Shown here in pieces: positions 3,427-61,383 of a DNA stretch of 64,000 bases (position 1 is the stretch's first letter; each line of letters begins with the position of its first letter). The position numbers and the translations under genes are program-made. The stretch is from the NCBI RefSeq assembly GCF_026151205.1, contig NC_087083.1, positions 7,852,460 to 7,916,459 of the forward strand. The letters are read 5' to 3'. The stretch is from Bolinopsis microptera (taxonomy: Eukaryota > Ctenophora > Tentaculata > Lobata > Bolinopsidae). Below the pieces are notes generated by a model. That model did no database searches. It worked only from the letters and a program-made list of their open reading frames with translations, and had not been told where the DNA came from.

Positions 3427-5529
3427 GGACACGTTCATTTGAGTTTGAGGATATTGGTAAATATAAGTGACCCTATTAAAAGGCACAGTGTAGTTGACTT
3501 TGTCACACTATTGAATTACTTAAACCCTTGATGGTTAGGATAATCGTCTCATCCTCTAGGCTAACTTTGTCACATAACGATATCTTAATCAGGTGATAAG
3601 ATATCGCTTAAATACGGCCGGCACGGAAATGGTTACATTGTCACACTATAAACATGTGACGGAGTAAATATGAACCCCTTGCTGCCGTTTTTGACCAAAT
3701 TTTTGAGTGTCCAGTTGATTGGATGGGTACATATGACCATTACCTACATATTTGACGACTTTTTTCGTTATATGGTGCATTCAGGTTTACTCTGTCACAC
3801 ATTAAAGAAAATATGTGATGAATGTTTAGGGCACCCTGATAAGCAATGCTGAGTAGTGTAAGTTTATTTGATGGCCTGGAAGTGCTGGGAATTGTTATTA
3901 TATCATATAATAGTCGTAAGGAATTAAAACACAGAAGGCACAACCAAGCTTATTTTGTCACACAATCTTGATGATATCTGAACATGTGTGAAATTGAACA
4001 AATAATGGTATACCAGCTTAAACCCCTTATATTATACGTACTATGGATCAAACAACACTGCTAGTACCATGCACCATGCCAGTCACATAAATCATTATCA
4101 GGTGGTAATATGTTAACAGTGTCACAATTAAACTACCGCTACATGATCAAAAATAGGGTAATTTCGTCACAAAAAATTATTATAACTCTGTTAGCTCCTT
4201 GCTGGCAAAATAACTAGTTTATCGAAATTTTTTTGATGATAAGGTTACATGGTATTCTAATAGAGGTATAGTTCTTCAAAATAGGGGCAAGACATGTTTA
4301 CTTTGTCACATCAGTTATTATAAGAGTTAGGTAATCGTCATCAGATTAAAAGATATTTTTCGTAGTTTGGATCGATTAATACTTTAATATACCTGTAATA
4401 AATCCTATGCCAATTTTAACACACTATCTTGATACTGTTGGGGCAGAAAAAGTTAATTTTGTCACATTTTCAATGTCTTTGACAAATTAATCTAAATCTA
4501 GGGGCAAGACATGTTTACTTTGTCACATCAGTTATTATAAGAGTTAGGTAATCTTCATCACATTAGTTACATATATTTTTTTGTAGTTTGGATTGATTTA
4601 TATAGGTAATAAAGCAGCCTATGCTAATTTTTATACACTATCTTGAAATTTTTGGGGCATGAAAAGTTAATTTTGTCACATTTTTAGTGACTTTGACAAA
4701 TTTAACCTAAAATTGTTAAACTTAAGCTCTGATGTTCTGGACAATATTCTAATAGAGGTATAGAATATAGATCTTCAAAATAGGGGCAAGACATGTTTAC
4801 TTTGTCACATCAGTTATTATAAGAGTTATTATTAGAGACTATTTCATTCTATAATCATTGTTTTTAATCTATTTACGATTTCGTATAATTTTTTGTGACA
4901 ATGTAAACATCAACTGATCTTAACTTGCATCAACTACATTGTCATCATATAAAATTTTCCCGCCTTTCAAACCAAAATCAGATATAAATAATTCGCCCAA
5001 AATTTTAAATTTCATTTATTGTGACAGAATTAACCTCATTTCCCAATAACCAAGTGCCTGTATAAGCTAAATATTCAAAACAACATATTTTAGGGCTATG
5101 ATTGGTAGAGCAACCATCAAATAATGAGTTGAAAGGGTTTTTAGGACACCTCACAGTAGAATAGAGGTATGGTATCATGAGTGTGACAAAGTTACCTAAA
5201 TATTGCCTTGTAACCGTTCGATCCGTGCCCATTAACCAATGTTGTATCATAATTGTTAGATTGACCTAATTTACTATATTTCAGACCAAGGAATGATAAT
5301 TAGACAAATGCAGTTAACTAAGTCACACAAAATGTGACATTTGAAACATTATAGTGCCTAACAACAATAGATTTTCTTTCTGAGCGGTGCATATGGGAGT
5401 ATGGGTTACGTGGCTAATGTTCAGAACTTCTGAACGTGCTAGGTTAATAGATGTCAAAATTAAGCCACTATCGTCAAAAACGCTATTATTTTTGTTTACC
5501 AATATCCTCAAACTCAAATGAACGTGTCC
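3427..5529. mobile_element. TIR DNA element with ordered TTTGTCACA motifs, inserted in a minisatellite
   Basis: Perfect 35-bp terminal inverted repeats begin GGACACGTTCATTTGAGT at the left end and finish CTCAAATGAACGTGTCC at the right end. The host 22-bp minisatellite is interrupted and ATGT is present on both sides (3423-3426 and 5530-5533), consistent with a 4-bp target duplication; because the TIR is flanked by T and A, a 2-bp TG duplication is equally possible. The 2.1-kb interior has no transposase frame, so the element is non-autonomous. It carries about twelve copies of a motif near GTTTACTTTGTCACA in one orientation between 3493 and 4810, then three or four in the opposite orientation between 4893 and 5335. 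A block containing GGGGCAAGACATGTTTAC is present three times (about 4281, 4501 and 4783). Confidence 0.85.
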
Positions 5530-14796: not shown

Positions 14797-15344
14797 AGGA
14801 ACTCCAACCAAAACTTCCCAGTTATATGAAAATGGTACGACGCGCTCACAAGAGGTATATATATTAAATTAACGTCATTTAGTTCGATATTTTATTTCTG
14901 TAAAAATACTTTCCTTAAGAGCTCAAATAGTCGACAGTCAGTAATACTATAAATAATCATACTTGCTGACCATTTTCTTACAAATCTGGTTTTAAAACTG
15001 TATTTGAGTCATTATCTGTCTGGTTTCAAACTTCAAAGAACTCAAATTTTTAAATTCCGCAAATGTGAAATTTATGTGATTTAAAAACACTATTTTAGTT
15101 ATTATCTGTCAGATATTAATGTTTTGGAGCCAGGGTGTGGTCAGGGAACTCACGTGGAGGGGGTTGCTTAAATAATTTACTTGTTTTGATATAGACTCCG
15201 AAACCATAGCAGAAAACAGGTAAAAACTTAAAAAGTAAGCAGTTAACTGTTTTCTAATTTCTTAGCTCAGACTACAGGTACTCATGAAGTAATTAGGCAC
15301 TTTAGCACTGATTCTCCTTTTCATAGTAGCAGGCCCATTAAAAC
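14797..15344. other. Intergenic stretch, no gene supported
   Basis: AT-rich single-copy sequence without a recognised feature. An upstream exon of the following candidate gene could lie here but I could not place one. Confidence 0.35.
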
Positions 15345-16599
15345 ATGAAAATAAGCTCACTGCATCCTGATCAAACACTGTTCAGGGTAAAGTTCAAGAA
15401 GCTAGAAACTACACATATGTGTTTTGAGACTGCAGATTTCTGTAACATGAAGTGCTCTGGAAGGTGAGGATCGTTACTTAGTGTTGATTTTCGTCCTATT
15501 TTTAATAAAGTAATAATTATCGAATACAATATCTGAATTTTTCGTGGGGATCTTTATTTTAAGTCCGCTTTGCTTTTAACCATGGATTAATATGTTTTAC
15601 TATTATTAATATTACTACTTATTATTAATAATAACTGATAAAATCATATTTCCAAGCTGGTCCAATGTAAGGTATCTTTATCTAATAAGCTAATAGCACT
15701 CAATTATCATGCCGTGTTAATTATAAAAGTAAATTGTGTTTTACTTAATATAATATTATATATACTTATATATAAGTGTTAAGTGGGTCACGAAGGGAGA
15801 GGGGATTTTCAATGGCCAATAACGGCTTACGTAATGTAAAACACAACCATCTGGGGTTTCTTACACGTAATAGGTCAAAAATCTCGAGCACCCAATTAGT
15901 AGGCCGTGTCCTAAGTGGCCGTTATATCGCGTTAAGTGGTAGTTTTCTCTTTAAGTTTAAAAGCGTAATTTTGGAAAAATTGTCTTACATCCGAAAATTG
16001 TAATATTTTCACCCAGGAACAGGAACTACCTATTTAAACGCATTACCTAGGCCAAGTAATTGATCGATTATACATATACAAGATGCAAAGTAATTGAATT
16101 AGATAATGTTCGTTAAAATTCGGTTCAGTGACCGTTTTTATATTTTACATTTCTGACTTTCAGCCGCCGCATATAATGCAATTTTTGCTATCGGTGGAAT
16201 TTTATTTTCTTGGTACTATTCGCCAGGAGTCTCGGTATCTCAAATTACTAAAGACCACATTTAACGGGCTTTATTGTGATAAAATCTGCCACGTTTTAAA
16301 AAGAATTGAAATAATGAAGTAGCGTTGAAAGGTCTGGATCCACACCCCTCCTCCGCAAGATTTGCTCATTCACCCACCACTTACACCACTTTTATAAGGT
16401 TTATATCATTAGCCAAGACAAGACTGAGCTGCCGTACAAATGTGAAGTGTGGCGTGAAAGCCGCTCTCTCTTTACAGTTGACACTGGATATGAGTACAGC
16501 GTGTTTCACTCCGCACGCTGTGGACACGTGTTGACAACCAGATCACTTTTTACAGCTGGCTGGTTCAGACCTTGTTACTTACCTGATAAATACTGCTGA
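15345..16599 (+). CDS. Candidate two-exon gene for a 101-residue Cys-rich protein (hypothetical)
   Basis: Exon 1 is 15345-15463 (ATG with A at -3; ends GGAAG before the donor GTGAGG) and leaves two bases. Exon 2 is 16413-16599 (after ATATCATTAG, stop TGA) and supplies one base, so the phases agree and 101 residues result. The frame has a coding look: exon 1 holds CFETADFCNMKC, and exon 2 holds KCEVWRESRSLFTVDTGYEY followed by further Cys (ARCGH, RPCYL, DKYC). Eight Cys in about 75 residues suggest a disulfide-rich fold, but the modelled N-terminus (MKISSLHPDQ) is not a signal peptide, so an upstream exon may be missing. The second exon has no ATG. An alternative acceptor at 16399 would be phase 0 and would not fit exon 1. 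I do not recognise the family. AATAAA occurs at 16811. Confidence 0.35.
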
Positions 16600-17640
16600 T
16601 GTGATGTGAGAATAGGTTCGGTTAATGTGATGGTCTCACTGGCCAGGCGACAGCTGCAGATTATAGTGTCTGGAAAATTTAGACTTTAACATTGTAAAAA
16701 GGCTTAGGATTATTTAAAAAATGAAACTTAGGAGCCATGCTAGATGGTGTAATGTCTTGCTGATACGGAAAGCACAGACTCTAGTTGGGACCTTATTCCT
16801 AAGTGTAATCCAATAAAATAGTGTAATTTAATAAGACCAGCTGTTGACAATAACGTGTGCCACTATGTAGTGGTGGTAATCATGTGAACACATCACAATA
16901 CTCACTTTGTACCCGTAAATAATACTGACTTTCTGTACAAAGTAAAATGATTTAAGACCCTCTAATTGCAGCATGTAGCTGAAAGTCGTGGAGACTGACA
17001 CTGGTTTGAGTTACAACTCTTATCCAGTCGCGACGCGCGCACTGGCACGTGACCAGTCGCGATGCGCGCACTGGTCACCATGGTCACGTCATGCGGAGTA
17101 GTACACGCGTTTAAAAGTTGAGAGTTAATTGATGACAGCGTAACTACTACAACAAGATGGTGGTTAATTGTCGTGACATTCCGATCTTAGCATTGACTAA
17201 GTTGTGGTGAGTTGGTTCCTAGTTCCGACTCACGTTTAGCTTTCTTTACTATTGAACTCTGTTTAGAGATACGCAACTAGCTGCAACATGTTGGTTAAGC
17301 TGGATGCGTTAATATAAGTTACTAGTTAGAAAGATAGACGAGTAATACTAATTTGTTTAAAAAAATAAAAATATTTATATTAGGTCATGGTAAATTATTG
17401 AATATTACAATTGTAAATATTATACTTATAGCACGATGGGCGGTAAAGAAATTTCTAAAAGATTATTGTAATATTTAGTATTTACGTAATTATCGTAATT
17501 GAAATTTTCATTCATTCAGATTACATTTTTCGTAAGATTTGATTGTAATGGAAATAATTTTAGAAATGTTATATCATGAACTTCTATTTTTACAACTTTA
17601 TGCTTAAAAACCTCGAAATTGATTCCACCAAAGCTTTATA
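16600..17640. other. Intergenic region with a CpG-rich duplicated 22-mer
   Basis: CCAGTCGCGACGCGCGCACT followed by GG occurs at about 17024 and again, with one C-to-T change, at about 17050, next to two CACGTGA/GTCACGT-type sites. The rest shows no feature. Confidence 0.45.
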
Positions 17641-18497
17641 GTAGAGGCTCTTACGGGCAAAAAGACGTGTTTTCTGCTACGAGTTTAGAGACCTAACCGC
17701 TAATTGGACACAATAGTATGATGTCTAAGGATCGATAATATGTTAAGAAGTATAAATTTGGCCTTATTAGTCACGTGCTATACCAATGCGCGTTTTAAAC
17801 TTTGACAGTCTATTACTCTAAGGCAAATAAAGTAATTATATTCATATTTTGTCAGCAATAAGATCACATTATTTTCTATTTAGTGTAAAAATATGAGCTA
17901 GAACGGACATAATCTCGCTGAGTTATAGCTGTTTGAAATTTATGATGAACGCGCGGGTGCCAATTGATAACAACTAAATGCTTTTGCGCGTAGTGCGCGT
18001 CGAAAATTTGGCAAAAACGCTTGCGGAGTGAAAATATTCAAACTTCGATAAAGTATATGAAGTGGGTACTTCTCGGAAAGGAAAAATTTAGGCAAACACG
18101 ATGTGACTATTTTTGGGTTGATTTAATACAACTGCAAAAAATTATTCAAACTTCAAGCAAAAAAGTCAAAATTTTTACCACTTTTTTGGATTTTTACCTC
18201 AGAACAAATAGAGGGATTTGTTTTATTTTTATACAATCTTGTGCGGCTGTCTTTTAGCTATCTTTATGCAAGTTTTGCCGACATGCCAACAAAATTAACT
18301 TGCTCAAAATATCAAAAAACATGGTTTTTTGGCCTATTTTTGGCCCAAAAATCGGTTTTTTGCGATTTTACCTCAGAACAATCAGTCCAATCATCTTGAA
18401 ACCACTTTCAATCGATTCTACGGTCAAAAATACGTCTAGTAAGGTGTATCTGGGGTCCCTAACGTATCGAGCAGACAATGCCCGTAAGAGCCTCTAC
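17641..18497. mobile_element. Non-autonomous TIR element with TA flanks
   Basis: Perfect 19-bp inverted ends: GTAGAGGCTCTTACGGGCA at the left and its complement at the right. TA lies on both sides (17639-17640 and 18498-18499), as expected for a TA target duplication of the Tc1/mariner type. The 857-bp interior has only short frames without a transposase motif. Confidence 0.75.
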
Positions 18498-21434
18498 TAT
18501 TAAATCATATGCTGCTGGAAACTCTACTCAAAAAATAAAATCTATGATGATCTCTCATCAAAGTAAAACTTAATTAATTAAGTTAATACACATCACCTTA
18601 ACACATGCAAACGCGTCTGTCTGAAAATCAAATAACTTACTTAATTAACAATTCCAATAGCACAGAAAATTATATGAAAAAGTTTCCGTATTTTCACAGT
18701 AAATTATATGAAAAATTTTTCATATTTTCACAGTAAATTGTATGAAAAAGTTTTCATATTTTCCTGTTTTATCTTCAATTTTACAAACGAGCTTAAGTAG
18801 ACTAGAAATATTACAATAATTCGACATATTCCGTCCTCGGTTCGTTGAATAATATTTATTATTCCAATGCTAAATACAATGAGCATTGATGAGCTAAATA
18901 CAATGCAGTCCGATAATCAGTGAAATTTCACCGAATGATGATTTTATTTTACAGACCAGCGTAGTTAAAAAGTCATGAAATTGTTTAAAATACTTTTTAG
19001 GCCGTCATGGTTGATTAATAAGAAAACAGGCTAAAATCTTAAATGTACATATTCAATTAAAGGAAAGGTATAGTATAGTGAAGAATGTCCATATAGAAAA
19101 TATTAACAGACGTTCATTTCATTATGAATTTTCGTTTTATATCTCTATAGCGCCAATTTAATTATTTCAATCAATTCTACGCTAAAAGAATAATTTAAAA
19201 CCATAAAATTCATAACTTTAAACTAACTATAAATATTTCAAGTTGCTAAACTAAAAAATAGTTCATAGAATCAAACACTATAAATCTACATTGACGGCTG
19301 TCTCTACAGAATGTATCATTATCAACTAGCAGAAAGCACATTTGATTCTCCAAACTTTGTATTGTATATATTGACGTACTTAATTGAACTAAATAAGATG
19401 ATGCAATTCCTGCTTAGTTACGTAGCTTTTATACTGTGAACGAATGTGCAAATAAGTCGATGACTTTAAAGGAATTTTCTAGTACTGTCTTTCTCGAACA
19501 ACTCTATAAGATATCTTTTTAAATTGAGGAATCTAAGATTGTTATCTCTGTTGAAATTGACCAATTTCTTTTAATAGATAGCGTACATGCTGTACGTGCA
19601 TATGATGTACGTTTATACGCACACAATACTTTAAACAGATATTCATAACTAACAGGGTGTGGTACTGCTCAGTTGCGTTACTTGTAAGTTTGTAACTGAC
19701 AGCTGCAGCACCCCACCTGCCTGAGGCACACCCTTCACTAGATACCATCATACTGAGGTGAAACAGGAAAACTCAGAGGTCATACCTCAAACTACAGTCT
19801 TGAAGTTGGAGGTGTGACGTTAAGAAGGTTCAGTCTTAAAGGGACCCTTGCTGTTTTAGGTAATACTAATCGGCTTCGCAGACTGGTTATAGATGAAATC
19901 ACAGGCGATATTCTCAACTGTCAATAAGCCAGATTCTCGGGCATCATGCTGTTTGGTTTGATACCAAAAAAATGACAAATCATTCTCCCGGCCTTGCTAT
20001 ATAATATATATAGAGAAGCTGTTCCAACAAACTGTAACGACAAATATTTGTAGAACTGCTGACAGGGGCAATTAGTACAAGTTGTGAAGAGGGGGTAAAG
20101 TGAAGAAAATTGAAGGTTCCGAGTCTCTCTACTATGCTGTTGTCATGGTTACGGGCTCTCTCTCACTCTGGGTTGGAAAGGATTGCCATGGTGATTATCT
20201 GATCACATAATATAACAGAACTTACAAGTCATCAGCTACAATTAACAGGTCACACTTTATTTACTGTGAGCAAGTGTGGCTTATTATAATGGGTGCTGCT
20301 TTACCATGGACACGTGTAACTTTGTGTGTGGACGTGAATGAAGCTACATTCAATCATTGAGAATGAGTGGTTGGTCTTGGCAACCTGCCAGTTTCACACT
20401 AGTTCTCAAGAGTGGTCTAAAAACCTACCGGACGGAGAGAAAGTTCTGCCTGTCAGTATTTGGCGTGTGTGAGTGAGGGCTATTTATAGATGTAAAACAA
20501 CTATTGCTGTCAGCACATTTCCTGTGCAATCCACTCTCTGCTGGCATTTGCTTATAGTTTTAGACGACACGGGTATCCCTAAACTTAAGAACATCACGAA
20601 ACTAGTGACTTAATCACTTAATCAGGATGTAAATAATATGACACAAGTCTCATTAATCTCAACTTAATTACACGCTGTTTCTTATGTAAAACTAAGGATT
20701 GTGGCTTCTCTATACTCAATATATTGCGAGCATTCTCTAGAACATTTTCTTAGTCACGTGAATAAAGAATTGGAATTTAAAAAATACTTAAGTTATGATA
20801 TCATGCTTACATGAAATAGTACAGAGATGGAATTATTCTGGATATTAGTGATTTGCTTCCATCCTCCATTAAGTAATTCAGTATAAAATCTAGATTATCT
20901 TCACGATTAAGAGGGCAACGTAGATATGTGAAAAGTATAATCTAGTGAGTAGCAATAGATAACGATTCGCATAGCAAATAACGATCAAATAACTAACCGC
21001 ATTGTTAAGATCTAGTAGTATATGATGGAGGTGAACACAGAGGCAGCTGATATTATACTCATGAATATGTTATGCCCAGTTAGCCTAAGAACACGTTATA
21101 TTGAGGCAGAATAAATATAGGCTTGACTGTATTAGCGTATTGCGTAACTCTAATTTCTTAATATCAGAATGGAAGCAAGAACGTCAACCAATAGTAATAA
21201 AAATTACCTTTTTCAAAGGTGGATGGCAAAATGCTATAAATTACCATGCTGTTTATTCCATCTGTCCAATATTACCGTTATAGTTCTGATGAACCCTGTC
21301 ATTGTGACCGTTTCAAAATGTTTTTACTGTCCAGTAAAATCTTAATGTTAGAATAATATTTTAAGATAAAAAATTCTTTCACGTCGAATATATTACAAAG
21401 TAAATTGTTTTGAAAAACTCAATCACCCATTTGA
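18498..21434. other. Intergenic region without a supported gene
   Basis: Contains three imperfect copies of a segment around AAATTATATGAAAAAG...TTTTCACAGT (18665-18765). Short coding-looking frames without ATG or clear splice partners exist near 19756-19926 and 20085-20205 on the plus strand, but each is short enough to arise by chance and I do not call them. Confidence 0.4.
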
Positions 21435-21440
21435 TTTATT
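21435..21440 (-). promoter_or_regulatory. Candidate polyadenylation signal for the fusogen gene
   Basis: AATAAA on the minus strand, about 100 nt past the stop codon at 21542. Confidence 0.4.
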
Positions 21441-21541
21441 TTCACGGAACAATTCCCTCTACAATGCTACAGTGCTCATTTACAAATACTAATACAGCTA
21501 AAATCTCGATCATAGCTATGGTTACTACTTTAAAAGGATTA

Positions 21542-24004
21542 CTAAAGCTCACTACTGTTCTTTAAAAGCAGCACTCTCGACCCATTCCTTGAGTGGCCTG
21601 GCCTCCTCGGAGCGTCTCTAATAATCTCTACTGCTTGTCCTCCTCTACTCAACAAACTCTCTGTAGAATTAGTCATTAGTTCCATCTCTTGGTCATTAAA
21701 CAGTGCTCTAGTCAAGTGCATTCTCGCTAGATTAGGTGATCCATGTCCCGGTGCTCTAGCTAAGCTTCTGGAGGAGCCAGTGTGATGAGTAGGAACCCTC
21801 TGGAGACTGGGAGAGGAGAGAGCTTCAGTGTCAACTCCGTCTTGTACGGTGTGTCGTCTCCCCATTCTGCTGAGAGCAACCGGTATTCTGGAGGGAGGTG
21901 GAGTAGCGCTGTAGGGGTTAGGGAGAGTGCTGCTCTTCTTTCCCATGATGGGGGTGAGGTTGAAGCCGGGAGTGGCAGCTCTGGGTGGGACAGGAGGAGC
22001 GTTGCTGAGCGAGCTGTTTACTGGCAGAGTGTAGGCTTTCCTCTGAGATTGAGGGGTGGAAGTGGAGGTTCTGGAGGACTGGGGAGTTGAGTTGGCTGTA
22101 GTGGAGAGGGTGGTGTTTTTATCCCACACGAATATGTTAGGGTCGGTTGTAGTCATCAGGGTGACGGGGTTGCCCTGGGCGTCATCTAGTTCGATGTACC
22201 GAGGAGTACTCACTAGGTAGGAGGGAGAGGATTCAGAGGACTGGGATCTGTGCCGATAGTTCATGTTTTGGTGGATTATATTCCCGTCAACAGCTGTTAA
22301 GTGATCCCTTATTTCATCTATTAGGACTCTCCTTTCCCTATCTCTCTCGTTGGACAACTTTGGTTGAACCTTCTCTCTTCGTTTCTTTAAAAAGTCGAAG
22401 TTGATCGGGCCAATAATGCAAGCCCAGCACTTTCCCAGACACCCGAAAACCTTCAATAGTTTCAAAACCACGCCGATAACAGTGAAAATACCCACAAGTT
22501 CTGTTGCCATTATCAAAGCCTCCTTCCAGTTCTTGATCCCGTTAAACCACTCTGCTGGGTTGAGATGTTTGGCCCAAGTTGCAGGTGATAAAATACTCAT
22601 CTTCTCTCCCTTTTCATAGTCAATAGCGGAGTCAGGCAGTTCAAATTCTTGAAGAAGTTCACGAATGCATTCAACAGGCTTGCAAAGTACTGACTCAACC
22701 CCAACCTCAGTAAAGAGGCAAAGCCGAGCTTGTTGGTGTGCTTCACAAAGGGAACTTAATCTGATGTAGAAGATGCTGGCGTCACTCTGATGTTCTGGAA
22801 TATTAATTTTGAAAACGTCAGTTTCACTATCCACTGTCAGGTTACCCCTGATGCTTCCTTCACCCTCGTAGATAGTGATATTGACGAAGTAGTTGGAATG
22901 TTTGTCCATCATGACCACGCCATCAAAATCACGGAAATGAGAGACATCAAACACCTGCACGACGGTATAGTCCCCCTCAAGCGTCAGAGTCAACTCAATA
23001 TTGCTGTATTGTCTGAAAAACGCCTCAACACTCCTCTCCTCGTCGGACCTCTCAACATGAGCAATGGACGTCTTGAACAACTGGTTCAGTTCAGTGGCCT
23101 GGTGGAATGTTTTCTGAGTGTTCTTGTTATCAAACTCCACATTAAGCTCATCACTATCACAATTGTCCACCTCCACGTTGAATGAGTCCATGATCTGAGA
23201 CTTGTCCATCTCGAACATACCCCTGGTGAACTTATACCAGCCCAACTTGTTTGTGTCGTACTCGGACAAACCGTTCAGCTCCACTCCTCCGTACAGCGTA
23301 TCTCCGGTATCAGAGCCAAAATACCAACCCGCTTTTAACGGTGATTGTATTGATGGAGCGGACACAGTTAAGTAGAAAGGTTTTAGTATGGGATGGCCCC
23401 CTTCAATGTCCACCTCAGTTGTAACTGTCCGCTGAGTATTGAGACTGGTGACACTAAACATGGCTCTGTTAGCTCCCGGACCCAGCTGTATAGCCTTCCA
23501 AATAGTCCTGTTCTGCGGGGTAACATTGATACTGCAGCACACTTCAGCACTGCCCGACAGAAACGCGGTACAACCAGAGTTGCTCTTGCCTTGCTCGTAC
23601 CAACTGTAGCAAGTACCTTGAGCTGCGAATATGCCGTTTTCCTTGCAACTGTCTGTGTTGGAACTACAGAAGTCCTCTGCTCCCGGACAATCACACACGC
23701 ACTTAACGTCCACATTGGGGATACCAAAGGAGTAGGAATTCGTGTACCGAAGCACACTTTTCACATCATCAAGTGAGATTCCGTACACTTCACTTTTATG
23801 CCAGTACTTGGCATTTTCGAGTGAAAAACAAGCGGTCTCTTTAAGACCCAGAGATATTGTAACGAGTGTCTGCTCGCTGAGCTTGCCGGTTACTCGGTCC
23901 CTAGTGAGGGTTCCCTTGTGGTGGATGGGCGGGGACTTACTGCAAAGCAGGGAGGAGTACCGGGGCAGCCAGCAGATCACGTGTAGTATTAGTATAATAA
24001 GCAT
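21542..24004 (-). CDS. EFF-1/AFF-1-like (FF family) cell-cell fusogen, single exon
   Basis: 820-residue type I membrane protein. Residues 1-22 are a hydrophobic signal peptide (MLIILILHVICWLP...). The ectodomain (about 23-495) contains 15-16 Cys, including a dense cluster CVCDCPG (102-108), C113, C120, C132, C145 and the pair CC at 156-157, then C282 and a membrane-proximal group C420, C429, C441, C446. Several N-glycosylation sequons are present (N160, N165, N375, N388). A hydrophobic segment at about 496-520 (ALIMATELVGIFTVIGVVLK) is followed by membrane-proximal Cys (522, 526, 529) and the basic run KKRREK. FF proteins have a class II fold and fuse cells when present on both partners. The CDCPG cluster, the Cys count and the domain order fit that family. 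The invariant HAP2/GCS1 block is not visible, so HAP2 is the less likely alternative. The roughly 290-residue cytoplasmic tail is Ser/Thr/Pro-rich, has PPVPPR at about 670-675, and is far longer than in nematode EFF-1. No intron interrupts the frame. Confidence 0.7.
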   Translation of the reverse strand: MLIILILHVICWLPRYSSLLCSKSPPIHHKGTLTRDRVTGKLSEQTLVTISLGLKETACFSLENAKYWHKSEVYGISLDDVKSVLRYTNSYSFGIPNVDVKCVCDCPGAEDFCSSNTDSCKENGIFAAQGTCYSWYEQGKSNSGCTAFLSGSAEVCCSINVTPQNRTIWKAIQLGPGANRAMFSVTSLNTQRTVTTEVDIEGGHPILKPFYLTVSAPSIQSPLKAGWYFGSDTGDTLYGGVELNGLSEYDTNKLGWYKFTRGMFEMDKSQIMDSFNVEVDNCDSDELNVEFDNKNTQKTFHQATELNQLFKTSIAHVERSDEERSVEAFFRQYSNIELTLTLEGDYTVVQVFDVSHFRDFDGVVMMDKHSNYFVNITIYEGEGSIRGNLTVDSETDVFKINIPEHQSDASIFYIRLSSLCEAHQQARLCLFTEVGVESVLCKPVECIRELLQEFELPDSAIDYEKGEKMSILSPATWAKHLNPAEWFNGIKNWKEALIMATELVGIFTVIGVVLKLLKVFGCLGKCWACIIGPINFDFLKKRREKVQPKLSNERDRERRVLIDEIRDHLTAVDGNIIHQNMNYRHRSQSSESSPSYLVSTPRYIELDDAQGNPVTLMTTTDPNIFVWDKNTTLSTTANSTPQSSRTSTSTPQSQRKAYTLPVNSSLSNAPPVPPRAATPGFNLTPIMGKKSSTLPNPYSATPPPSRIPVALSRMGRRHTVQDGVDTEALSSPSLQRVPTHHTGSSRSLARAPGHGSPNLARMHLTRALFNDQEMELMTNSTESLLSRGGQAVEIIRDAPRRPGHSRNGSRVLLLKNSSEL

Positions 24005-26479
24005 TCACAGTGTAGGGGGAGGTTTCATTCCCTGAAAGTGAAAGTGGAAGTGAAAGTTTCATATTCATCATGTGAACCGTGTTTATCAATATCATATTTA
24101 TCATAAAATAATGGTTGTGTGATGTAAGGTTCAGGCGTAATTAACTCGACTACCATGACGCTTATAAACACGTTGAAAACATTTCATTGTGTTTCAATTC
24201 TGTCTTTAGAAGTGATTTAAGTACTGAAAGCAATTGATTGTAACTTGCAATCGGTAGTATTTTTAGCCCACACAGAAGTTTAGAATAAAAAATATTATAT
24301 CCCACGTTGATCGCAGAATTCTTTGCCCCACGCTGTGGGCCTGCCGCGCACAACTGCGTAGCAAATATCCATGTCCACGAACTTGTACCAAGTAGTATCA
24401 AGAAAAAAACAGCATAATTTACTACATTTTAATCAGCAACGAGCGGAAACCTTTAAAGCGTTAACAAAAACTGAACCGTATCAAGAAAAACGCGGCAACC
24501 AGAATTAGCACAAACCAGGATTAGAACATTAAGTTTAACTACCATAAAGTGTGAACTTGACGACACGGCAGTTCTTGCCGCCAATACGAAACACAACCAT
24601 ACGTTTTTATAGTTCACCAATCAAACCATCGGTAATGACAGGTTCTCTATAAATGATTAAACATAATTAACAAATCCCTCCTCCAGATAGATATCACAAA
24701 ATATTCCACGGTAAAATTGGCAAAAACAGGATACAACACCTCCAAGAAATGAGTTCACTGAACGAAATAAAGAGAAAGGGTGGGATGACTTAACCTACAT
24801 CTGACATGACAACATTGCAGAGAGAGAACCCGGCCTAGAGAGAGAGAGAGCTGCTGATATCTCTCTCTCTCTCTCTCCCTCGCTGTGTCAGCAGCTATAC
24901 GCTCAGAACCTCGTGACGTGCCAATATATACTCATTCTGCAACTGCTCTGCTGTTAAAACACTAACATAGCTCACTCTCTGAGCGGGTTATATGGCTTCT
25001 GTTTTTGACATAGCAAGGAGAGAGAGAGAGGTAGAATTAGTCGGGTATAGTGGAATGTAACTGCGGAATTTTAGAAATTTATAGGAGAGGTCTCCACCTT
25101 GACTCACCCTGTTGGGTTGAGCGGTAGAAATTTAGAAAATTGAGGAGTTTGATTGAGGTGGAATTGGTTCCGTGCCATAATTAAAGGGTAAATATTTCGT
25201 ATGCAGGTTTGTTTAGGAATGGGATATGAGAGAGGTTGTGTTATAACTTTATGAACTTGATTTAAAAAGTTCGCGATGTTAACTTGTTGACCGAGTACAG
25301 GGTTAAACAAGAAATGTTTCAAGTTATCAAAGCCTTATAACTTGTTCAATTACCTTCTAGTGCTTAGCTAGATTCACAGAAGAACGATCACCTACTTTAA
25401 TATTCATAAAGATATAAATTATACGGGATTCCTTATTTAGACTTATATTATTATATGTAAAGATGATCTAACTTAGATAATCTAAGCAGTAAATTCTAAC
25501 TTAAATAATAATTTTAGCTTGACGCATCCTATTTTTGGCATCATCCAAATTGGTGAATTTGTGTCGAAAACATTTCAAATAGTCATTATAGATTACGCAA
25601 TAGTTTTGAAATAAAACGAAGCGTAATTTGATTAGAAAGGTGATTATCTTATCGGCCTTATAATGCGCGGAAATTGCTCAATTAATTACAAAGGCTGCGC
25701 ACAAGGTTTAATTTGCATTTGGTGATTTCTTAAGAATAATAAGTTTTAGGATAAAATAATCGTTTTGCTCAGTTAAAAAAATATGATCAGTCTAGGTAAT
25801 CTACATATTTAAAAACACCAGTGCTGCAAAATTGAAGGCAGTGATTCGGATAGGTCTGGTTTAGAAGCACTAAACCGAAACGATAATGACCATAATGTAC
25901 GTGAGACATAACTCAGTACGCACTTAAATATTTACACGAAAATCGAATTCACTGTCACAAGAATTAGCAGTAAAAGCCTAATGTTGAAATATTCATCCAA
26001 ATTGGAAAGATTACTTTTTTAAAATTGTCAGGGCCACTTTAATGAGACAGAGAAGCACAAATTATAATTGGCCGTTAACATGATCGATCAGTAGATGGTA
26101 AATTTCTCTAATTCAGGCAATCAATAAAAAAAGCTGATAGAAATTAATAAATAAAGTATAATAGACCCTGGTCATTATAGGGTCAATATGGCATAATTTA
26201 TCTTATAATGTTTAAACTATTTGACCTTAAAATATTTAAACTATTTTGCCAAATACCAAAAAGAAATTCGATGGAATGCTAGTCTACTCCGAAGCAAAAT
26301 AGCTTCCAGGATTAACTAATGAAACCCAACTTTGTAATGTGCTCTCCTTCCCGCAAGTATTTCTTGCAATATCTTATAATAATATAAATTATTGAAATAA
26401 AGGACAATCACTATGTCGTCCGACATGCGAAAACTCTCATAATCGTCAATAACTACTAGATTTAAAAAAAGTCATTAAG
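24005..26479. other. Intergenic region between the fusogen and SRCR genes
   Basis: No gene is supported. A GA/CT palindrome with GCTGCTGA and TCAGCAGC at its ends lies at about 24836-24892. Upstream regulatory sequence of the fusogen must lie here but I cannot identify specific elements. Confidence 0.4.
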
Positions 26480-26485
26480 TTTATT
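26480..26485 (-). promoter_or_regulatory. Candidate polyadenylation signal (alternative 3' end of the SRCR gene)
   Basis: AATAAA on the minus strand, about 75 nt after the alternative stop at 26561. Other AATAAA motifs lie directly after the preferred stop at 26944. Confidence 0.3.
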
Positions 26486-26943
26486 TCTCAAAAATAATTA
26501 TAAAGTTTCCCTTGAAGCTTATTGGTCCTCCTTTCTGTCCCTATATCCGTACCTTAACTCCTACGTCGAACCTGAAAAACAAGGTTGGAATTAAGGATGT
26601 CATGTTGTATATACATGTTATATAGGTAAGATATGGGCATTTTTATTATCCTCACTTCATTTTTTATCGTATTCCAAATTCATTTATCAATGAAATTAAA
26701 TCTTTATGATTTTTTTTGTTATTTTAATTTTTGATTATCTGTAAAAAAATGCAATCATACAATCATGTATGGTAACGACGGATATGTGTGTAGTAAGGAT
26801 GTCTTAAATTTGATTAAACTGATGCCGTCATGCCGACTTAAGTTTATGGCAAATTATCTAAACGGATCTTTAAGCTGCTGGCCTGTTTCATAATTAACAC
26901 AGCGTCAGCATTTACCAGCAGCAAAATTTTGATTTATTTTATT

Positions 26944-33769
<6,826 letters not shown>

Positions 33770-37325: not shown

Positions 37326-40272
37326 ATCACTCTACAGTGATTAATCATCATCCGTGATTAAGCCGCAGTCGCCTCCAGAGTACAAATACTCCAGGGTAGA
37401 ATATTAAAATAATGGTAATGATAAGGTCATGATTAATTGTCCGTTCAAATAAAGTCCGGTAAAGTACGTTTTCATGATCACCATTAATCTAATAAGGGAT
37501 ATTATAAAGTTTACTCACCTTTGTATTCGTCATTCCAGTTTTTTTGCAAGAGCAGAGCATTAAATGGAGATTACGAAGAAAAACGACGTAATCTTATCTC
37601 AAAGCGACCCTCCTGTATAAAACTAGTTATACCACTTCCAGCCAGTACTAGTTGTGGTGTTATAATCAGACATCACATGACGACATTAAAAGTTTTAATG
37701 TAAGTTTTAATTTAAAACTTAGTATCTCTAAGTGACAGTTGATTCACGATTTCAATCCTTCGCATCTCGACCCAGTTGTGCATCGCGCTACAAAATGACA
37801 GCTGCTCCAAGCGGAAGTTAATTAAACACTTCAAATCTATCGCATTTAAACATCTATTACATTTATTGACGTAATCCTAAATACTCCCGCGTGGGTGGCC
37901 GTAGAAAGCCGATACTATTGGAGTAGTATAGGCTAACGGTTCACCTGATCGCACTACATCGTTTTTATCATATATCTTCATGATCGCCATTTATCTAAGG
38001 GATACTAATATTACTAAGTTTACTCAGCTTTGCATTAGTAAATACACCTTTCCAGATTGCTTTCTAGAGCAGAAAAAAATTTTTTATTCCTTTCTTTTTT
38101 CATTTATTTTTTCATATCTTTTTTCACATCTTTTTTCCTTTATTTTTTCCTTTCTTTTTTCCTTTATTTTTTCCTTTCTTTTTTCCTTTCTTTTTTCATT
38201 TCTTTTTCCTTTCTTTTTTCCTTTTTTCTTTTTTTTTCTTTTACACTATAAAGGTACTCAGAACATGCCTCCTATAGTTATACCAAGACCAGTCTCTTCA
38301 CAAGGATGGACCTTCTATATTCACTGACACAAAACTTCAGAAGGAGATTTCTAAGTTTTTAATTGAAATAATTAAACGACATTTCCCGAGTAGTAGAGAG
38401 AGACAGGTTAAAATATCATCTAAAAATTTGAATCTGGCTGGTCTTACACCCATTGTATAATGTAACTAATTTCTGGGTGTACTTTTTCGATCCTTTGCCT
38501 CTTTTCTTTGCACTTTTTATTTTCTGTTTCGTTTTTTGAAGATCGTTCATTCTTGTATTCCCAACGTCGTGGTGCTGAGAAGCTAAGAGGCAACGATATT
38601 TACTTATTTTACGATTTTGACACTAATTAAAGGTATAAATTTGGGACCCAAAGTTCTATATTGGTCAATTTTGTATTTCTTCTGGTCAAAATGCAATAAA
38701 AACTTTCGATGCAGACAAAAAACGTTTTGATGGAATATCATTTACGGTGTTTGCGGAAATTTGTGTTGAAGTTGATGTCGTGGTATCAGTAAAATGGCAA
38801 CAGATATATTTCGTCTAGCTTTATATATAGCAAGATTACTTTAAAATCTCATACTTGTCTTTTACCAACTGAGATTTAAGTGTAATTCTTTATTTAACTA
38901 CCTTGACCTCAAACATTGAAGTTAAAATAAAGAAACTTACTAAAATGCGATAAAGTGCACTGAAACCACTGATAGTGATACACGATAGATACTTAGATGA
39001 GTGAAGCAAATCTCAATTAAGATAATTTTACAATTATAGGTATTAGCTAACAATACTCATTACTCACCTCACTCACTATTAACCCCAGACCCACATTAAA
39101 TTCACAAAAAAAGCCTCCATAATCAATGTTTAAATTAAACTTTAATGCAACCGCTCACAACATTAAACCGAAATAATGACAAATTTAAAAAAATTAAAAA
39201 AATTTGTTTTTTTAAATTAAAAAATAAATAGATTTAACTGAATACCCTGCACAGTATGCCTACTAATTAAGTAATTTAGCTGTTTTCCCTGGGGGCTGGG
39301 GCTACCTGAAATTAACTCTTATATATTTATTATTATTATTAACTCTATTGATAATTAACCCTTATTATTTTCACTCGATCTTCCACGTGATTAAAACGCG
39401 TTTTTCTAACGACAATCGTGTGTGCACGTGTATCCTCCGCTGCTTAAAAGAGCGGATAAGTTCCAACAAAGATCAGCAAACCTTTTATTATCCATTTGGT
39501 GACAAACTCGCGAATTTTCCTCACGCATAATTTAGTTTTGATCTTGAACAAAAAATGTTGTGTAATCTTAAGAGTACAATGTACATGCACTATTATTTAC
39601 TTTTATAAGACATCCACCATTACTATTAGATACCTGATTTTTGCAATGTTTTTATGTTTAATGCGACGGGACATGCAATTTATAATCTTGAGGGATATAT
39701 TTTAAAAACATGTTGCAAGTATAATAATGCTGCGGAAGTACGTTGCCAACTATTTCCAACTATCTATTTATAGTTTATCACGTCAGCTGCGCTAAAACTT
39801 GATTTGTCTAGACCGGACCTGATATTTATCTTTATTAATTGGTTATCTTGCTGCACACATGTCCATTTAAGGAACTTTCTACTGTTAGTCTTTAATTTGT
39901 GAGCAATATTACCAATTTTGAGGTTAAACTTTGCAAAACGTATGTTTAACCTTTTAACTGTAGAATTTGATTAAAAGTAAAAAGGTGGTCCGGTAAGGAT
40001 TGTATTAATTTTGATGGGCAGAACGTAAACTGACAATTTTTCAAAAACCGCCGATTTTAAATATTAGGACGCAATAATGAAACTACCGGACCAGTATAAT
40101 ATATACTTATATAGTTCTGCAGAACCAGAATTCTGCTAATTCTTTACCAATTCGGTATAATGGCGGTGATTTTCATATTAACATTTTTCTGCCTTCGACA
40201 TCATTTTTAAATGTTTTGTCGAAAGTCTTCTGTCTGAACTCATTGATCTCCTTTTCAGTAATACAAATAAGT
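37326..40272. other. AT-rich region, no supported gene
   Basis: Two diverged copies of a segment (about 37430-37560 and 37925-38075) share CTAAGGGATA and AGTTTACTCASC. A pyrimidine-rich TTTTTTCCTTTC tract occupies about 38083-38245. The remaining sequence shows nothing I can name. Confidence 0.45.
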
Positions 40273-41352
40273 TGGCACTATCCGTCGCGGAGTCGAGTCC
40301 GCGGCGGAGCCGCCGGACTCCGGGCGGACTCCGAGCGGACTCCGGCGGAGCCGCCGGACTCCGAGCGGACTCCGGCGGTGCTCCGCCAAAATGTATTTAC
40401 AGTGGACTCGAGTACATTTTGGCGGACTCCGAGTGGAGCCGAGCGGACTCCGAGCGGACTTTAAAGTCCGCCGCGGACTCCGAGCGGCTCCGCGGCGGCT
40501 CGGCGGAGTGTCCGCCGCGGACTAAGCCACTAGGCGGACTCCGGTCCGCCGCGGACTCCGGCGGAGTGCTTGGCGGACTCCGCCGGACCTCTCCGCCAGA
40601 CTTGAATCCGGCGGAGTCCGGCGGAGCTTGGCGGAGTCCGCCAGCTCGGCGGACTCCGCTCGGAGTCCGCCGGACTCCAACAGAGTCCACTGACTTCCGA
40701 CCTCCGTCTTCCGACCCTCGGCTAAATTTGTCACGTGACATACAACATAGCATTTTGCAATATTGTGGTCAGATGAAAAGGTCGCTAGTGATAAACCTTA
40801 ACCATTACCCTCACAATGTCAATAGTGTACAACTCTAGTCCTAACTTTGACCCTATAATGTATAAACGTTGACCCTAACCCTCCACCAAACCGTCCGCAG
40901 CGAAATATCAATGTCATTGACTGGTCACGTGACCAAAACAATTTTTGTCATATTATCTCGATCATATGGGGAAGCGTTTTTAGCAAGCAAAAATACGTCG
41001 ACCATCACAGGACGACGCCAGCCAGCACTCTCTACGCTCTTCGAGCTCCGATCGTCCTGTGACGAAGTAAGGACGAAGCCTGAGGTCCTCAGGTAACATC
41101 GACCACCGATTGAAAATTTTTTTGACATAAAGGTCAAATGTAAAACTAAAATCTTGATGTTGATTGATTGACGACGTCAATTTTTGAGCACAGCGCGACT
41201 CGCGAACGCATATTGCGGAAAAGGACCGCGTAGCTAGTCAAGATGTTGATAAATATTTGGCTTGTTGCGCGATGTGTTGCTCTAACTATAGCCCTCTCGC
41301 TTGCAGTAGCGCGCGACCGCCGCGCCGGAGGCGGAAATGACCTGGTTAGCTA
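40273..41352 (+). repeat. GC-rich 1.1-kb interspersed repeat, copy 1
   Basis: The first 400 bp is a dense array of GCGGACTCCG-type motifs. It is followed by a less GC-rich tail with GTCACGTGAC sites and ends CCTGGTTAGCTA. An inverted, nearly identical copy lies at 60239-61381. Long open frames exist in several phases because the motif lacks stops; none looks like a real protein. Confidence 0.9.
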
Positions 41353-54572: not shown

Positions 54573-57500
54573 TCACGGGTTCACAAACCCGGTGTTAGCA
54601 TTATACCTGATCTTAGGTTTTGAACTCAACCTCCCCGAGCGTCTAACTGGCTCCTGACTACTGATCTGAGTGTTTGGTTGTGTCGGTTGGTTACTAGTCA
54701 CGACTGGCGATCCTTCTCTACTTGGACCCGGCTGCTGCCCCACTGTTATTACAGGTTGCTCAATATTCCTCGGCTCAGTGTTTCTTTCCGGTATCTCAAT
54801 TTGCTGCTTCTGTAACTCGATTACTGGCACTAACCGTTTCTTCATCGCCTCTACATGTTTCTTTATGATCCTACCCTTGTAGTTCACATCATACCACAAT
54901 GATTCTCCGTGTCTTTTTTCAATCGTTGCTGGTTCGTACTCTTTCCGAGTGTCAGGTCGAACCCATACTGTTTGTTTCTCCTCAAATACACGTTCGTTTC
55001 TTCTACTGTCAACAACTTTCTGTTCATTATCAACATTTAGTCTCTCCGCTTCCATCTGATCACTGGGTCTGAGGTGATGTAACTTAGATCGTAAAGTTCG
55101 TCCGTACATCATTACTGCTGGTGGTTGCTTAGTTACAGAGTGTGGAGTATTCCTATATGCCATTAGGAAGTTAGCGAGATTTAAATCTAAATCCTTAGAC
55201 TTTTCGTACATCTTTTTCATCGCTGACTTAAAACTCTGGACAAACCGTTCGCAGCTTCCGTTACTCCTCGGGGAGTATGATGGGCACAAAACATGTCTTA
55301 TCTGATTCTTCTTTAGGAAGTTCTTGAATTCTTCACTGATAAATTGCGGTCCGTTATCGCTGACTAGAACCCAAGGTACCCCTGTTCTTGAAAATACTCT
55401 TCTCATTGCTTTTATCGTAGCTGGCGCAGTAGTGTTATGAGACATCTTGATAACTTCCGGCCATTTTGAGTAAGTATCGTACATCAGTAACCAATAGTTA
55501 TTTTGGAATTCTCCAGCGAAGTCCACATGTACTCGTTGCCAGGGTCTTGTTGATTTAACCCAGGGATGGTCGATGACTTTTGGTAACTTTTTCCCGTGTT
55601 TTTGGCAGGATGCACATGCTTTAACTAAAATCTCTATATCTTGGTCTATTCCTGGCCACCACACATAGCTTCTAGCCAGGCTTTTCATTCCAGTCATCCC
55701 TACATGTGTAAGGTGTAGCATCTTAAGAACCTCTGCTCTTAGTTTATGTGGAATGATTACACGATTTCCCCATGTGATACATCTTTTTTCAGTCGTGAGT
55801 TGGTTCTTTCTGTCGTACATGGCTTTCATCTCCTTGTGATCTTTGTCTATCTTTTCCGGCCAGCCATCTACAATGTACATCGCTATCTTGCTCAGAATAA
55901 TGTCTTTGGATGTCTCCCGGGCAACTTCTTTTGCATCTATCAGTGCGTCCTCCATGGTCAAAGAAAATGCCTCTTCACATTCGTTTGGCTCGTCCACATG
56001 AATGACTTTTTTCGGGAATCTGGACATTACATCAGCATTAGCATGCTCTTTTGTATTTCTGTATACTATGTTATAATCGTAATTTTGTAACAGCAGTGCA
56101 TATCTGGATAATCTGTTCGCCGTCATCTCTGGAATGCCTCTCTTAGGTCCAAATATATGTACTAACGGTTGGTGATCCGTCACTAGTTCAAAGTGTCTTC
56201 CATACAGATACATATGAAACCTTTTTATAGCCCAGACTATCCCTAAAGCTTCTTTGTCAATCTGGCTATATTTTTTCTCAGCATTCGATAATGTCCTTGA
56301 AATAAATTCAACCGGACGTTCATTTGTTCCATCATCATCTATGTGTGACAATACAGCTCCCAAACCCACGCTGCTTGCGTCTGTATCCAGCTTCAAACGT
56401 TTCAGCGGGTTGTAGAACGTCAATACTCTGTCAGAACAAAGTAATTTCTTTAATTCTTCGAAGGCTTTCTGTTCAGTCTTTGTCCATCGCCATTCAACTT
56501 CAGTCTTTCTCAACTCGTCCAATGGAGCGATTATTGTCGACAAATCTGGTAGATACTTGCGATAATACCCAACTGCTCCCAGAAATGCTACTAAATTTTT
56601 CACATTTTCAGGTGCCTGTACTTTTAACAGATCGTCTATCTTGCTGTTGACTGGTGACATACCATGCTTGTTCACCTTGTGTCCTAGATAAATCACTTCT
56701 TCATGCATCAGCTTAGATTTATTCAGTCTGCATCTGAAACCGTTTGCTTCCAGTCTTCTCACAACTTTATTCAGATTATCTAAGTGCTCTTTATCGTTCT
56801 TTCCTGATATTAAAATGTCGTCTATCCTACAGCAAACCATAGGTATACCCCGTAGTACATTGTCCATCAGATTCTGAAAGATTGCTGCGCTGCTATTTAT
56901 TCCATACGGTAAGCGCGTCCACACATACTGTCCCATATGCGTATTCATTGTCGTGATGAGTTGATCTTCTGTTGATAGCTCCACGTTATTGTACGCTTGT
57001 TTTATGTCTATGACTGAGAACTTTTCTCCTCCCGAAACGCTTGCAAAACATTCTTCTGTAGTTGGTAACGGGTGATGTTTCATTTCCAATAGTTTGTTGA
57101 CTGCTTTAAAGTCTCCACATATTCTCACACCGTCTCCTTTTTTCACTGGCATAACTGGAGTTCCCCATGGGCTCTCTTTGACTTTCTTCAAAATTCCTTG
57201 TTTCACCATGTTGTCTAACTCCTTTTCCAGTAAGTCTTTAATAGCAAAAGGTACTGCTCTTGATTTCTGCGTGACAGGTCTGCTTCCCTCCTTCAATTGG
57301 AGTTGCACTTTATAGTTCTTTACCAGACCTAACTCATCTTTGAAGATGTCACTAGACATTATCTCTTGTACTGTCCGTATCTTTGTTGGTGTTCCAGGAT
57401 CTGTTTCATCGTCCACACTAACAAAATTTCTCAACTGATGTGTTCTAGGAGCAGTCTCTTCGTCCTCACATCGTTGTCCAGTTTTAAACTTTCTCTTGGC

Positions 57501-59174
57501 GGTATCTGTCACTGGTTCTGATTCCATAACTCCCAACACGTTCACTGTTCGTACTCCTTCTTGAGTCCCAGGAAATTCTCCTTCGTGTGCGCTACAGTTT
57601 CCATCAGTTCTCTCCAGTTCAACCTCTTTTGTTGGTCTCTGTCCAACTTCTGCTGTTTGGCCCTGTGTTCTCGTTACTAACTTTTCTAACCAGTTTTCAC
57701 CACAAAACTCTGTAATCCAAGAGCGTCCAAACAGTGCTGGAAAGTGATTATCCACCACATACAGTTCCAACCCTTTCACAATCTGGTTGTTTATCGCCAC
57801 TTCCACAACTGCTTTACCGCATACCTGCTGGTATTGACCATTCGCCACACGCAGTTGCCTATCACTACTTCTCAACTTAAACTCCACACCAGCTTTCTTC
57901 AGCATCTCTCTACTGCACACAGATACACTTGATCCACTGTCAAACTCCATCAGACACTCTCGGCGATTGATCCAAACCTTGATCAGGGGTCTAGAATCAC
58001 GCAAAAAGTTCACGTTATCGAAGTAAACAGTGTTATCATGCCAAAACCTGTTATCATGCAAAATAATGTTATTGTCATGCAAATCAACATGCGAATCATC
58101 ATGCAAATTACTACCATACAGAACACTATTATCATCATCCTGAATTTTAGAATCATCAATACTTGTCAGGTTGTTGCCCAAATTTGAAGATTTTTGAAAC
58201 AAAACATTTAACTGGTCATCTAAACTTACGGATTTCTCCGACAATTCACAATAGTAAATATTTCGACTCACAAACTGTTCTGTGTCCTGGTTTGAATCGC
58301 TGTTTGAATCGCTGTTGTTGCAGTCTGTTGATACATGATGTGTAGATTTACCACTCTGTTTCCAGGACTTGCGTTTCGTCTTCTTACGGCAGTCCTTAGC
58401 AGTATGATACAATTCACCACAGTTGAAACATTTAGTATAGCAGTCCTTGGTTGCATGCGATTTGAGTTTGCATTTATTGCATCTTGTCTCCTGATTGGAA
58501 CTTCCCTGTGAAGATTTCCCTTGAGACTTCTTGCTGATCTGTACCTTATGTACAGTTTGCTGGGAGTTTTTAATCATTGCAGCCTCTGATTTAGATCTGT
58601 CCATTGCCACCACTTTTCTATACGCTCTCTCTAGTGTCAGTTGTTCGAAATCCTCCTCCAATAGCAACTCCTGTGCTTCTGAGTTAACAATTCCCATTAT
58701 AAATTGATCTAACATTGAACTGCCGAAGTCTGTAAACTTGCATTTGACTGCCAGTTTTTTTAACCTCGCAACAAAGTCTGCTGTTTTCTCCGACTGCTTT
58801 TGGTGGCATTTGTAGAATCTGAATCGCTCTGCCAAAACAGTCGGTTTCGGGACCATGTGATTTATGAGAATTGTCTTCATCTCGAAATATGTAAGTTCGT
58901 TGACGTCATTTGGAGATGCTAAAGACGTAAGTAGGGAAAAGATTTCTGGATCAATGCTCGTTAAGAAGTGAGGTTTGATCGTTTGACATAGCTGATTATA
59001 TTCCGCTAACAGTTGTGCATGCGCGGTTCGTTGCGCTTCATTCGGATTCTCTACTAACGGTTCCGGTTCAACCGGATAGGATTTTTGGGACTCGAGAAAC
59101 CATGTGTACTGCTCGAACCAGTCTTCCGGCGCGCTGACTGTAGCGGTCAGAGGATAGGGGTAGGATTTTGTCAT
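54573..59174 (-). CDS. Gag-Pol polyprotein of the Ty3/gypsy element
   Basis: Uninterrupted frame. The first Met is at 59222, inside the 5' LTR; Met17 at 59174, 13 nt after the LTR, is the likelier start, giving 1533 residues. Numbering from the upstream Met, the domains are: gag with two CCHC knuckles (CNKCKLKSHATKDC 248-261, CFNCGELYHTAKDC 265-278); an Asp/His/Asn-rich linker (about 300-410); aspartic protease (FDSGSS at about 427); reverse transcriptase (first Asp in FSVIDIKQAY, about 739; catalytic pair in CRIDDIL, about 798-804); RNase H (TDASSVGLGAVL, about 950); integrase with HHCC (HLTH...CASC) and DDE residues in VDFAGEF, SDNGPQF and NGSCERF; and a basic C-terminal tail. It replicates the element by reverse transcription in particles and integrates the DNA (family knowledge). 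The residue before IDD is Arg rather than the usual Tyr or Phe, which may impair activity. No chromodomain is obvious. Confidence 0.93.
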   Translation of the reverse strand: MTKSYPYPLTATVSAPEDWFEQYTWFLESQKSYPVEPEPLVENPNEAQRTAHAQLLAEYNQLCQTIKPHFLTSIDPEIFSLLTSLASPNDVNELTYFEMKTILINHMVPKPTVLAERFRFYKCHQKQSEKTADFVARLKKLAVKCKFTDFGSSMLDQFIMGIVNSEAQELLLEEDFEQLTLERAYRKVVAMDRSKSEAAMIKNSQQTVHKVQISKKSQGKSSQGSSNQETRCNKCKLKSHATKDCYTKCFNCGELYHTAKDCRKKTKRKSWKQSGKSTHHVSTDCNNSDSNSDSNQDTEQFVSRNIYYCELSEKSVSLDDQLNVLFQKSSNLGNNLTSIDDSKIQDDDNSVLYGSNLHDDSHVDLHDNNIILHDNRFWHDNTVYFDNVNFLRDSRPLIKVWINRRECLMEFDSGSSVSVCSREMLKKAGVEFKLRSSDRQLRVANGQYQQVCGKAVVEVAINNQIVKGLELYVVDNHFPALFGRSWITEFCGENWLEKLVTRTQGQTAEVGQRPTKEVELERTDGNCSAHEGEFPGTQEGVRTVNVLGVMESEPVTDTAKRKFKTGQRCEDEETAPRTHQLRNFVSVDDETDPGTPTKIRTVQEIMSSDIFKDELGLVKNYKVQLQLKEGSRPVTQKSRAVPFAIKDLLEKELDNMVKQGILKKVKESPWGTPVMPVKKGDGVRICGDFKAVNKLLEMKHHPLPTTEECFASVSGGEKFSVIDIKQAYNNVELSTEDQLITTMNTHMGQYVWTRLPYGINSSAAIFQNLMDNVLRGIPMVCCRIDDILISGKNDKEHLDNLNKVVRRLEANGFRCRLNKSKLMHEEVIYLGHKVNKHGMSPVNSKIDDLLKVQAPENVKNLVAFLGAVGYYRKYLPDLSTIIAPLDELRKTEVEWRWTKTEQKAFEELKKLLCSDRVLTFYNPLKRLKLDTDASSVGLGAVLSHIDDDGTNERPVEFISRTLSNAEKKYSQIDKEALGIVWAIKRFHMYLYGRHFELVTDHQPLVHIFGPKRGIPEMTANRLSRYALLLQNYDYNIVYRNTKEHANADVMSRFPKKVIHVDEPNECEEAFSLTMEDALIDAKEVARETSKDIILSKIAMYIVDGWPEKIDKDHKEMKAMYDRKNQLTTEKRCITWGNRVIIPHKLRAEVLKMLHLTHVGMTGMKSLARSYVWWPGIDQDIEILVKACASCQKHGKKLPKVIDHPWVKSTRPWQRVHVDFAGEFQNNYWLLMYDTYSKWPEVIKMSHNTTAPATIKAMRRVFSRTGVPWVLVSDNGPQFISEEFKNFLKKNQIRHVLCPSYSPRSNGSCERFVQSFKSAMKKMYEKSKDLDLNLANFLMAYRNTPHSVTKQPPAVMMYGRTLRSKLHHLRPSDQMEAERLNVDNEQKVVDSRRNERVFEEKQTVWVRPDTRKEYEPATIEKRHGESLWYDVNYKGRIIKKHVEAMKKRLVPVIELQKQQIEIPERNTEPRNIEQPVITVGQQPGPSREGSPVVTSNQPTQPNTQISSQEPVRRSGRLSSKPKIRYNANTGFVNP

Positions 59175-59187
59175 ACTCGTCGCCAAT
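59175..59187 (-). promoter_or_regulatory. Primer-binding site
   Basis: ATTGGCGACGAGT lies between the end of the 5' LTR (59188) and the likely gag ATG (59174-59172). The TTGGCGACGAG wording is common after LTRs of metazoan Ty3/gypsy elements. Confidence 0.7.
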
Positions 59188-61381: not shown

Positions 61382-61383
61382 AT

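Follow-up and report, generated by a model that had tools for sequence, protein, structure and literature searches.

The window analysed here, a stretch of 64,000 nucleotides of the ctenophore Bolinopsis microptera (NC_087083.1, positions 7,852,460 to 7,916,459 of the forward strand; GC content 38.2%), carries a single-exon gene, hereafter copy A, for a protein of the FF (EFF-AFF) family of the nematode proteins EFF-1 and AFF-1. We consider it probable that copy A is a ctenophore class II cell-cell fusogen, one of at least twelve FF loci in its genome; this reading stands on the family, the fold, the elements of topology, the pattern of conservation, the multigene family and a hydrophobic cd loop. 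Copy A would thereby offer a concrete candidate for cell fusion in comb jellies. It is not a first for the phylum, since FF proteins have already been mentioned in a ctenophore, as the preliminary description of this DNA had stated (PMC4723337).

The 2.46-kb frame which that description had reported is real, has 820 codons on the minus strand and runs without an intron along its entire length. In-frame stops lie 3, 57 and 63 nt upstream of its ATG, and the longest stop-free stretch in 50 single-base shuffles of positions 15001-30000 of the window was 157 codons, against the 820 of copy A. Its parts are as follows.

21542..24004, minus strand: copy A, open reading frame of 820 codons plus stop, ATG start
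23948..24004, minus strand: putative signal peptide, residues 1-19, with a hydropathy peak at residue 2
22655..23947, minus strand: ectodomain domains I-III, residues 20-450, from the predicted model and EFF-1 fold matches
23534..23701, minus strand: cysteine-rich tip region of domain II, residues 102-157 (CVCDCPG ... CC), with cysteines invariant in the alignment
23552..23581, minus strand: residues 142-151, the hydrophobic cd loop (NSGCTAFLSG), flanked by predicted strands 131-141 and 152-163
22520..22654, minus strand: membrane-proximal stem, residues 451-495, with the motif LNPAEWFNGI, which aligns with LNPAHWIKGI of EFF-1
22442..22519, minus strand: transmembrane segment, about residues 496-521, from hydropathy and a predicted helix at 493-531
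22418..22441, minus strand: juxtamembrane cysteines 522, 526 and 529, read from the sequence
21545..22417, minus strand: cytoplasmic tail, residues 530-820, of low confidence in the model
21435..21440, minus strand: AATAAA, a possible polyadenylation signal, 102 nt past the stop

Family membership and predicted fold

The evidence that copy A belongs to the FF family outside nematodes, as had been proposed, is strong and comes from profile, fold and cysteine pattern together. The Pfam EFF-AFF profile matches it with 198.9 bits (cut-off 25) over all of its 467 positions, and EFF-1 (Caenorhabditis elegans; PDB 4OJC, 4CYL) is both its only sequence match in the PDB and the top fold match for two predicted models (Foldseek and VIA). 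Comparison of the predicted structure with EFF-1, which had been suggested as a check, indicates, at the level of a predicted model, that the class II domains are present; their absence, which had been named as refuting, did not occur. AlphaFold2 gave a poor model of the full protein from 12 sequences (mean predicted local distance difference test score, pLDDT, 52.8, with values below 50 from residue 531 on) and a better one of the ectodomain from 41 sequences.

Hydropathy, which peaks at the N-terminus and again from residue 496, gives the layout of FF proteins: a signal peptide, one transmembrane segment and a cytoplasmic tail. The juxtamembrane cysteines that follow, likewise noted before, are possible acylation sites. 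An earlier estimate of 15-16 ectodomain cysteines is borne out by a count of 16 (residues 21, 59, 102, 104, 106, 113, 120, 132, 145, 156, 157, 282, 420, 429, 441 and 446), including the CVCDCPG motif and the CC pair; Cys 11 falls within the putative signal peptide and outside this count. From residue 102 on, ten cysteines are invariant in an alignment of eight sequences that includes a fragment of EFF-1, nine of them between residues 102 and 157 and the tenth being Cys 282. Copy A thus shares with EFF-1 the class II fold, the cysteine-rich tip of domain II and the motif LNPxxWxxGI of the stem ahead of the transmembrane segment, whereas overall identity is about 22%, the tip loop differs and the tail of copy A is longer. 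The FF protein already mentioned for a ctenophore (cited in PMC4723337) belongs to the same phylum and family and presumably is an ortholog or paralog of copy A.

Two other sources of a class II protein may be considered at this point. A gamete-fusion protein of the HAP2/GCS1 kind would have the same superfamily fold, and a HAP2 structure does appear at rank 26 among the fold matches; this origin is nonetheless highly improbable, given that the only PDB sequence matches are to EFF-1 and that the HAP2-GCS1 profile PF10699 is unlisted for copy A up to E 10, a range in which HMMER filters remove most matches above about 0.1. Hence no better HAP2 match rivals the EFF-AFF score, an outcome that had been named as refuting. 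A search of the B. microptera genome for HAP2 gave no match, the control genomes likewise giving none. Equally remote, in our estimate, is the recent capture of a class II envelope glycoprotein from a virus or retroelement. The envelope of the hookworm Atlas element and phlebovirus Gc are among the fold matches, copy A has a single exon and a gypsy-like pol frame lies in the window at 54573-59222, but the two envelope matches rank after EFF-1, which is closest in both sequence and fold, and the pol frame is 30 kb distant. Moreover, copy A has close homologs, and its paralogs contain introns, one of which has GTAAGT...TTTCAG ends, in the manner of a host gene family; among viral contigs, 20 pattern matches to two short patterns yielded none that was confirmed. 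The 18 pattern matches in contigs of prokaryote genomes also included no confirmed relative. Copy A shares the three-domain fold with the class II fusion proteins of viruses and with HAP2/GCS1, but has no match to them at sequence level and belongs to a host gene family.

Conservation was read against close homologs obtained as protein sequences (P0001-P0011), sets of which may favour unsplit genes; we take them to be from ctenophores because they are close to copies in the B. microptera genome. The stem is the most conserved region, with 45 of 45 residues identical to P0002 and 38 of 45 to P0004, compared with 376/430 and 274/422 for residues 21-450; the tail has 216/283 identities to P0002 and 105/253 to P0003. 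Strongest conservation in the stem is what would be expected if it forms a hairpin. Within the tail, the islands PPVPPR, RRHTVQ and SRNGSRVLLLKNSS are conserved among the closest homologs in the alignment, and its C-terminal end is of the type NSSEL/NSSDL/NSSDV in copy A, P0002 and P0003, which we take to resemble a PDZ-binding end.

The tip loop and a possible mode of fusion

Viral class II proteins have a hydrophobic loop at the tip of domain II, in contrast with the acidic cd loop of EFF-1, whose tip has been described as unlikely to interact with lipid membranes (PMC8784728, PMC9259645). The acidic EDD motif of this tip has been placed at residues 157-159 of EFF-1 (PMC4050280); we find it at 179 in the 658-residue precursor, within C-SEDDIPKL-CC, a shift of 22 residues that would fit removal of the signal peptide. 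The stretch of copy A aligned to it is C-TAFLSGSAEV-CC, hence not the acidic, non-hydrophobic loop of the EFF-1 type, which is a trait of EFF-1 and not one that defines the family. AFF-1, of the same family, has been described as being without a charged tip in a preprint (PMC12236693).

To what extent is this loop shared? We compared ctenophore-type rows (copies A-I and P0001-P0011, 19 of 20 readable, P0010 lacking the region; the C-terminal piece P0012, outside these 20, is likewise without it) with EFF-1-type rows (P0013-P0058, 38 of 46 readable, most with nematode names and a few unnamed), counting F, I, L, M, V, W and Y and excluding the residue directly before CC. Each of the 11 distinct ctenophore-type loops has two to four counted residues and ten have a mean hydropathy above zero, whereas among the 23 distinct EFF-1-type loops 18 have no counted residue, five have one and all have a mean below zero, the highest being -0.33. 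None of the 38 readable EFF-1-type loops is hydrophobic on average, AFF-1 and EFF-1 being pooled in this set, with one row named CRE-AFF-1 (P0049). The loops of copy J (GITSFLGTGEV) and copy K (GLLEWLGQADV), which were taken by eye from the exons and stand outside the counts, agree; copy L was not included. The comparison is essentially one of two clades, with no FF sequences of arthropods, chordates or protists, so that either loop could be the ancestral one.

The hydrophobic loop suggests that the tip may insert into the opposing membrane. In the mechanism that we consider most likely, by analogy with EFF-1 and class II proteins, copy A would be displayed at the cell surface with type I membrane topology and, upon contact between cells, the tip of domain II would reach the opposite membrane; protomers would then form trimers and fold back, with domain III and the conserved stem packed against the trimer, such that the transmembrane segment and the tip are drawn together and the two plasma membranes merge. 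To judge from the loop sequence, the tip could insert directly into the membrane, which the acidic tip of EFF-1 has been described as unlikely to do (PMC8784728).

A number of points weigh against a fusogen that works in this way. In the ectodomain model, residues 228-230, 434-455 and 470-476 have pLDDT below 50, the predicted template modelling score is 0.57, and the domain arrangement of EFF-1 is not reproduced, the root-mean-square deviation to EFF-1 being 11 A. The loop of copy D is hydrophilic on average (Kyte-Doolittle hydropathy -1.19), its two counted residues being I and Y. Rank tests between the two loop types give p-values of 7e-5 for hydropathy and 4e-7 for residue count that overstate the difference, because it may reflect one or a few events and the rows of two clades are not independent. 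Finally, FF proteins can have other jobs, as AFF-1 has been linked to endocytic scission (PMC5931541). Copy A could be an FF protein that has lost the ability to fuse cells and acts as a receptor in adhesion, signalling or membrane sealing, its long tail recruiting cytoplasmic partners. The tail does take up about 290 of 820 residues (EFF-1A has 658 in total) and contains conserved proline-rich and basic islands, while twelve loci leave room for specialisation and one of them, copy D, has a frame shortened to 448 residues. We regard such a receptor as unlikely, however, since conservation is strongest in the stem, the cysteines of domain II are invariant and the tip loop is hydrophobic.

If the hydrophobic loop of the ctenophore members is a working one, FF proteins would bridge the somatic mode of class II fusion and that of viruses and gametes. 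A bolder proposal, which we hold to be doubtful, is that ctenophore FF proteins are membrane-inserting somatic fusexins able to act from one membrane only, that nematode FF proteins have lost the loop, and that the expanded family builds syncytia, including the nerve net by fusion of neurites. Bilateral action has been described for both EFF-1 and AFF-1 (PMC9259645). Burkhardt et al. ask whether the syncytial nerve net of a ctenophore comes from neurons that remain joined once they have divided or from neurites that fuse (PMC7617566); the dozen FF genes would be named candidates for the latter route, and their link with the nerve net is offered as a hypothesis. In the literature searched, of which coverage was partial, we found no account of the FF genes of ctenophores as a family, of their tip loop or of a connection with the nerve net, each of which may possibly have been published; among the texts consulted, PMC4723337 alone mentions FF proteins in a ctenophore.

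A multigene family with mixed intron states

The genome searched comprises 264,652,675 bases in 232 contigs, of which C1-C13 (15.2-26.2 Mb each) account for 258.07 Mb (97.5%). The EFF-AFF profile (13 matches) and a query with the homolog P0011 (21 matches) located at least twelve FF loci, A-L; the count is a lower bound, gene models being incomplete and copies J and L not traced to both ends.

C12, in the window: copy A
C1:3.64 Mb: copy B, 720 residues, 54% identical to A
C1:11.47 Mb (C1:11472000-11478000): tandem pair of copies C and D
C6:4.21 Mb: copy E
C6:12.72 Mb: copy F
C13:13.26, 15.73 and 10.85 Mb: copies G, I and J, respectively
C9:14.59 Mb: copy H
C7:13.37-13.39 Mb: copy K
C1:1.03-1.04 Mb: copy L

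A tree of 34 rows recovers the following groups: A, P0001 and P0002 (100/100); B, P0004 and P0006-P0008 (100/99); G and P0011 (100/99); C and D (100/99); E and F (100/100). Its deeper forks have weak support (80/42, 80/32), and the branches of H, D and F are long. At four-fold degenerate sites A and B are close to saturation, with identity at 28% of 149 sites versus 26% expected, while first and second codon positions retain 70% identity; these genes have therefore long been maintained by selection. In copy D the part ahead of the stem is much reduced, and it is possibly a decoy or a decaying copy.

How did copy A come to be without introns? Retroposition and old intron loss had both been put forward, and both are compatible with what we find: five of the twelve copies (A-E) have one frame across the matched region, whereas in the other seven (F-L) the match is broken into at least two blocks, apparently by introns, as read from tblastn blocks and not from transcripts. 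Split and unsplit copies are interspersed on the tree, E being in one frame versus its partner F split, and A and B in one frame versus G split; the intron state has therefore changed more than once. An old retroposition of the ancestor of A and B is possible. Copy K extends over nine tblastn blocks across about 22 kb, and copy I has one intron with GTAAGT...TTTCAG ends. In copies J (4729-5449 of its locus) and K (1268-2979) the match stops within the cd loop before CC and continues in a later block, so that both seem to carry an intron just ahead of the CC pair, a position through which copy I reads.

Other features of the window

Rfam gave no match in the 64-kb window at gathering thresholds. 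The neighbouring gene had been described as split by many introns, with which three SRCR-domain frames at 27666-31909, separated by other DNA, agree in part. A tandem duplication covers 29085-32541 and continues to 33529, with a spacing of 2.2 kb, stretches that are 96-97% identical, SRCR-domain frames and long CT/GA simple repeats between them. The gypsy-like frame (minus strand) encodes 1549 uninterrupted residues with protease, reverse transcriptase, RNase H and integrase domains. Two near-identical frames of 188 residues lie 20 kb apart in opposite orientation, at 40272-40838 (plus strand) and 60816-61382 (minus strand); the former, the only one of the pair that was scanned, has no Pfam match, and together they are probably a repeat element.
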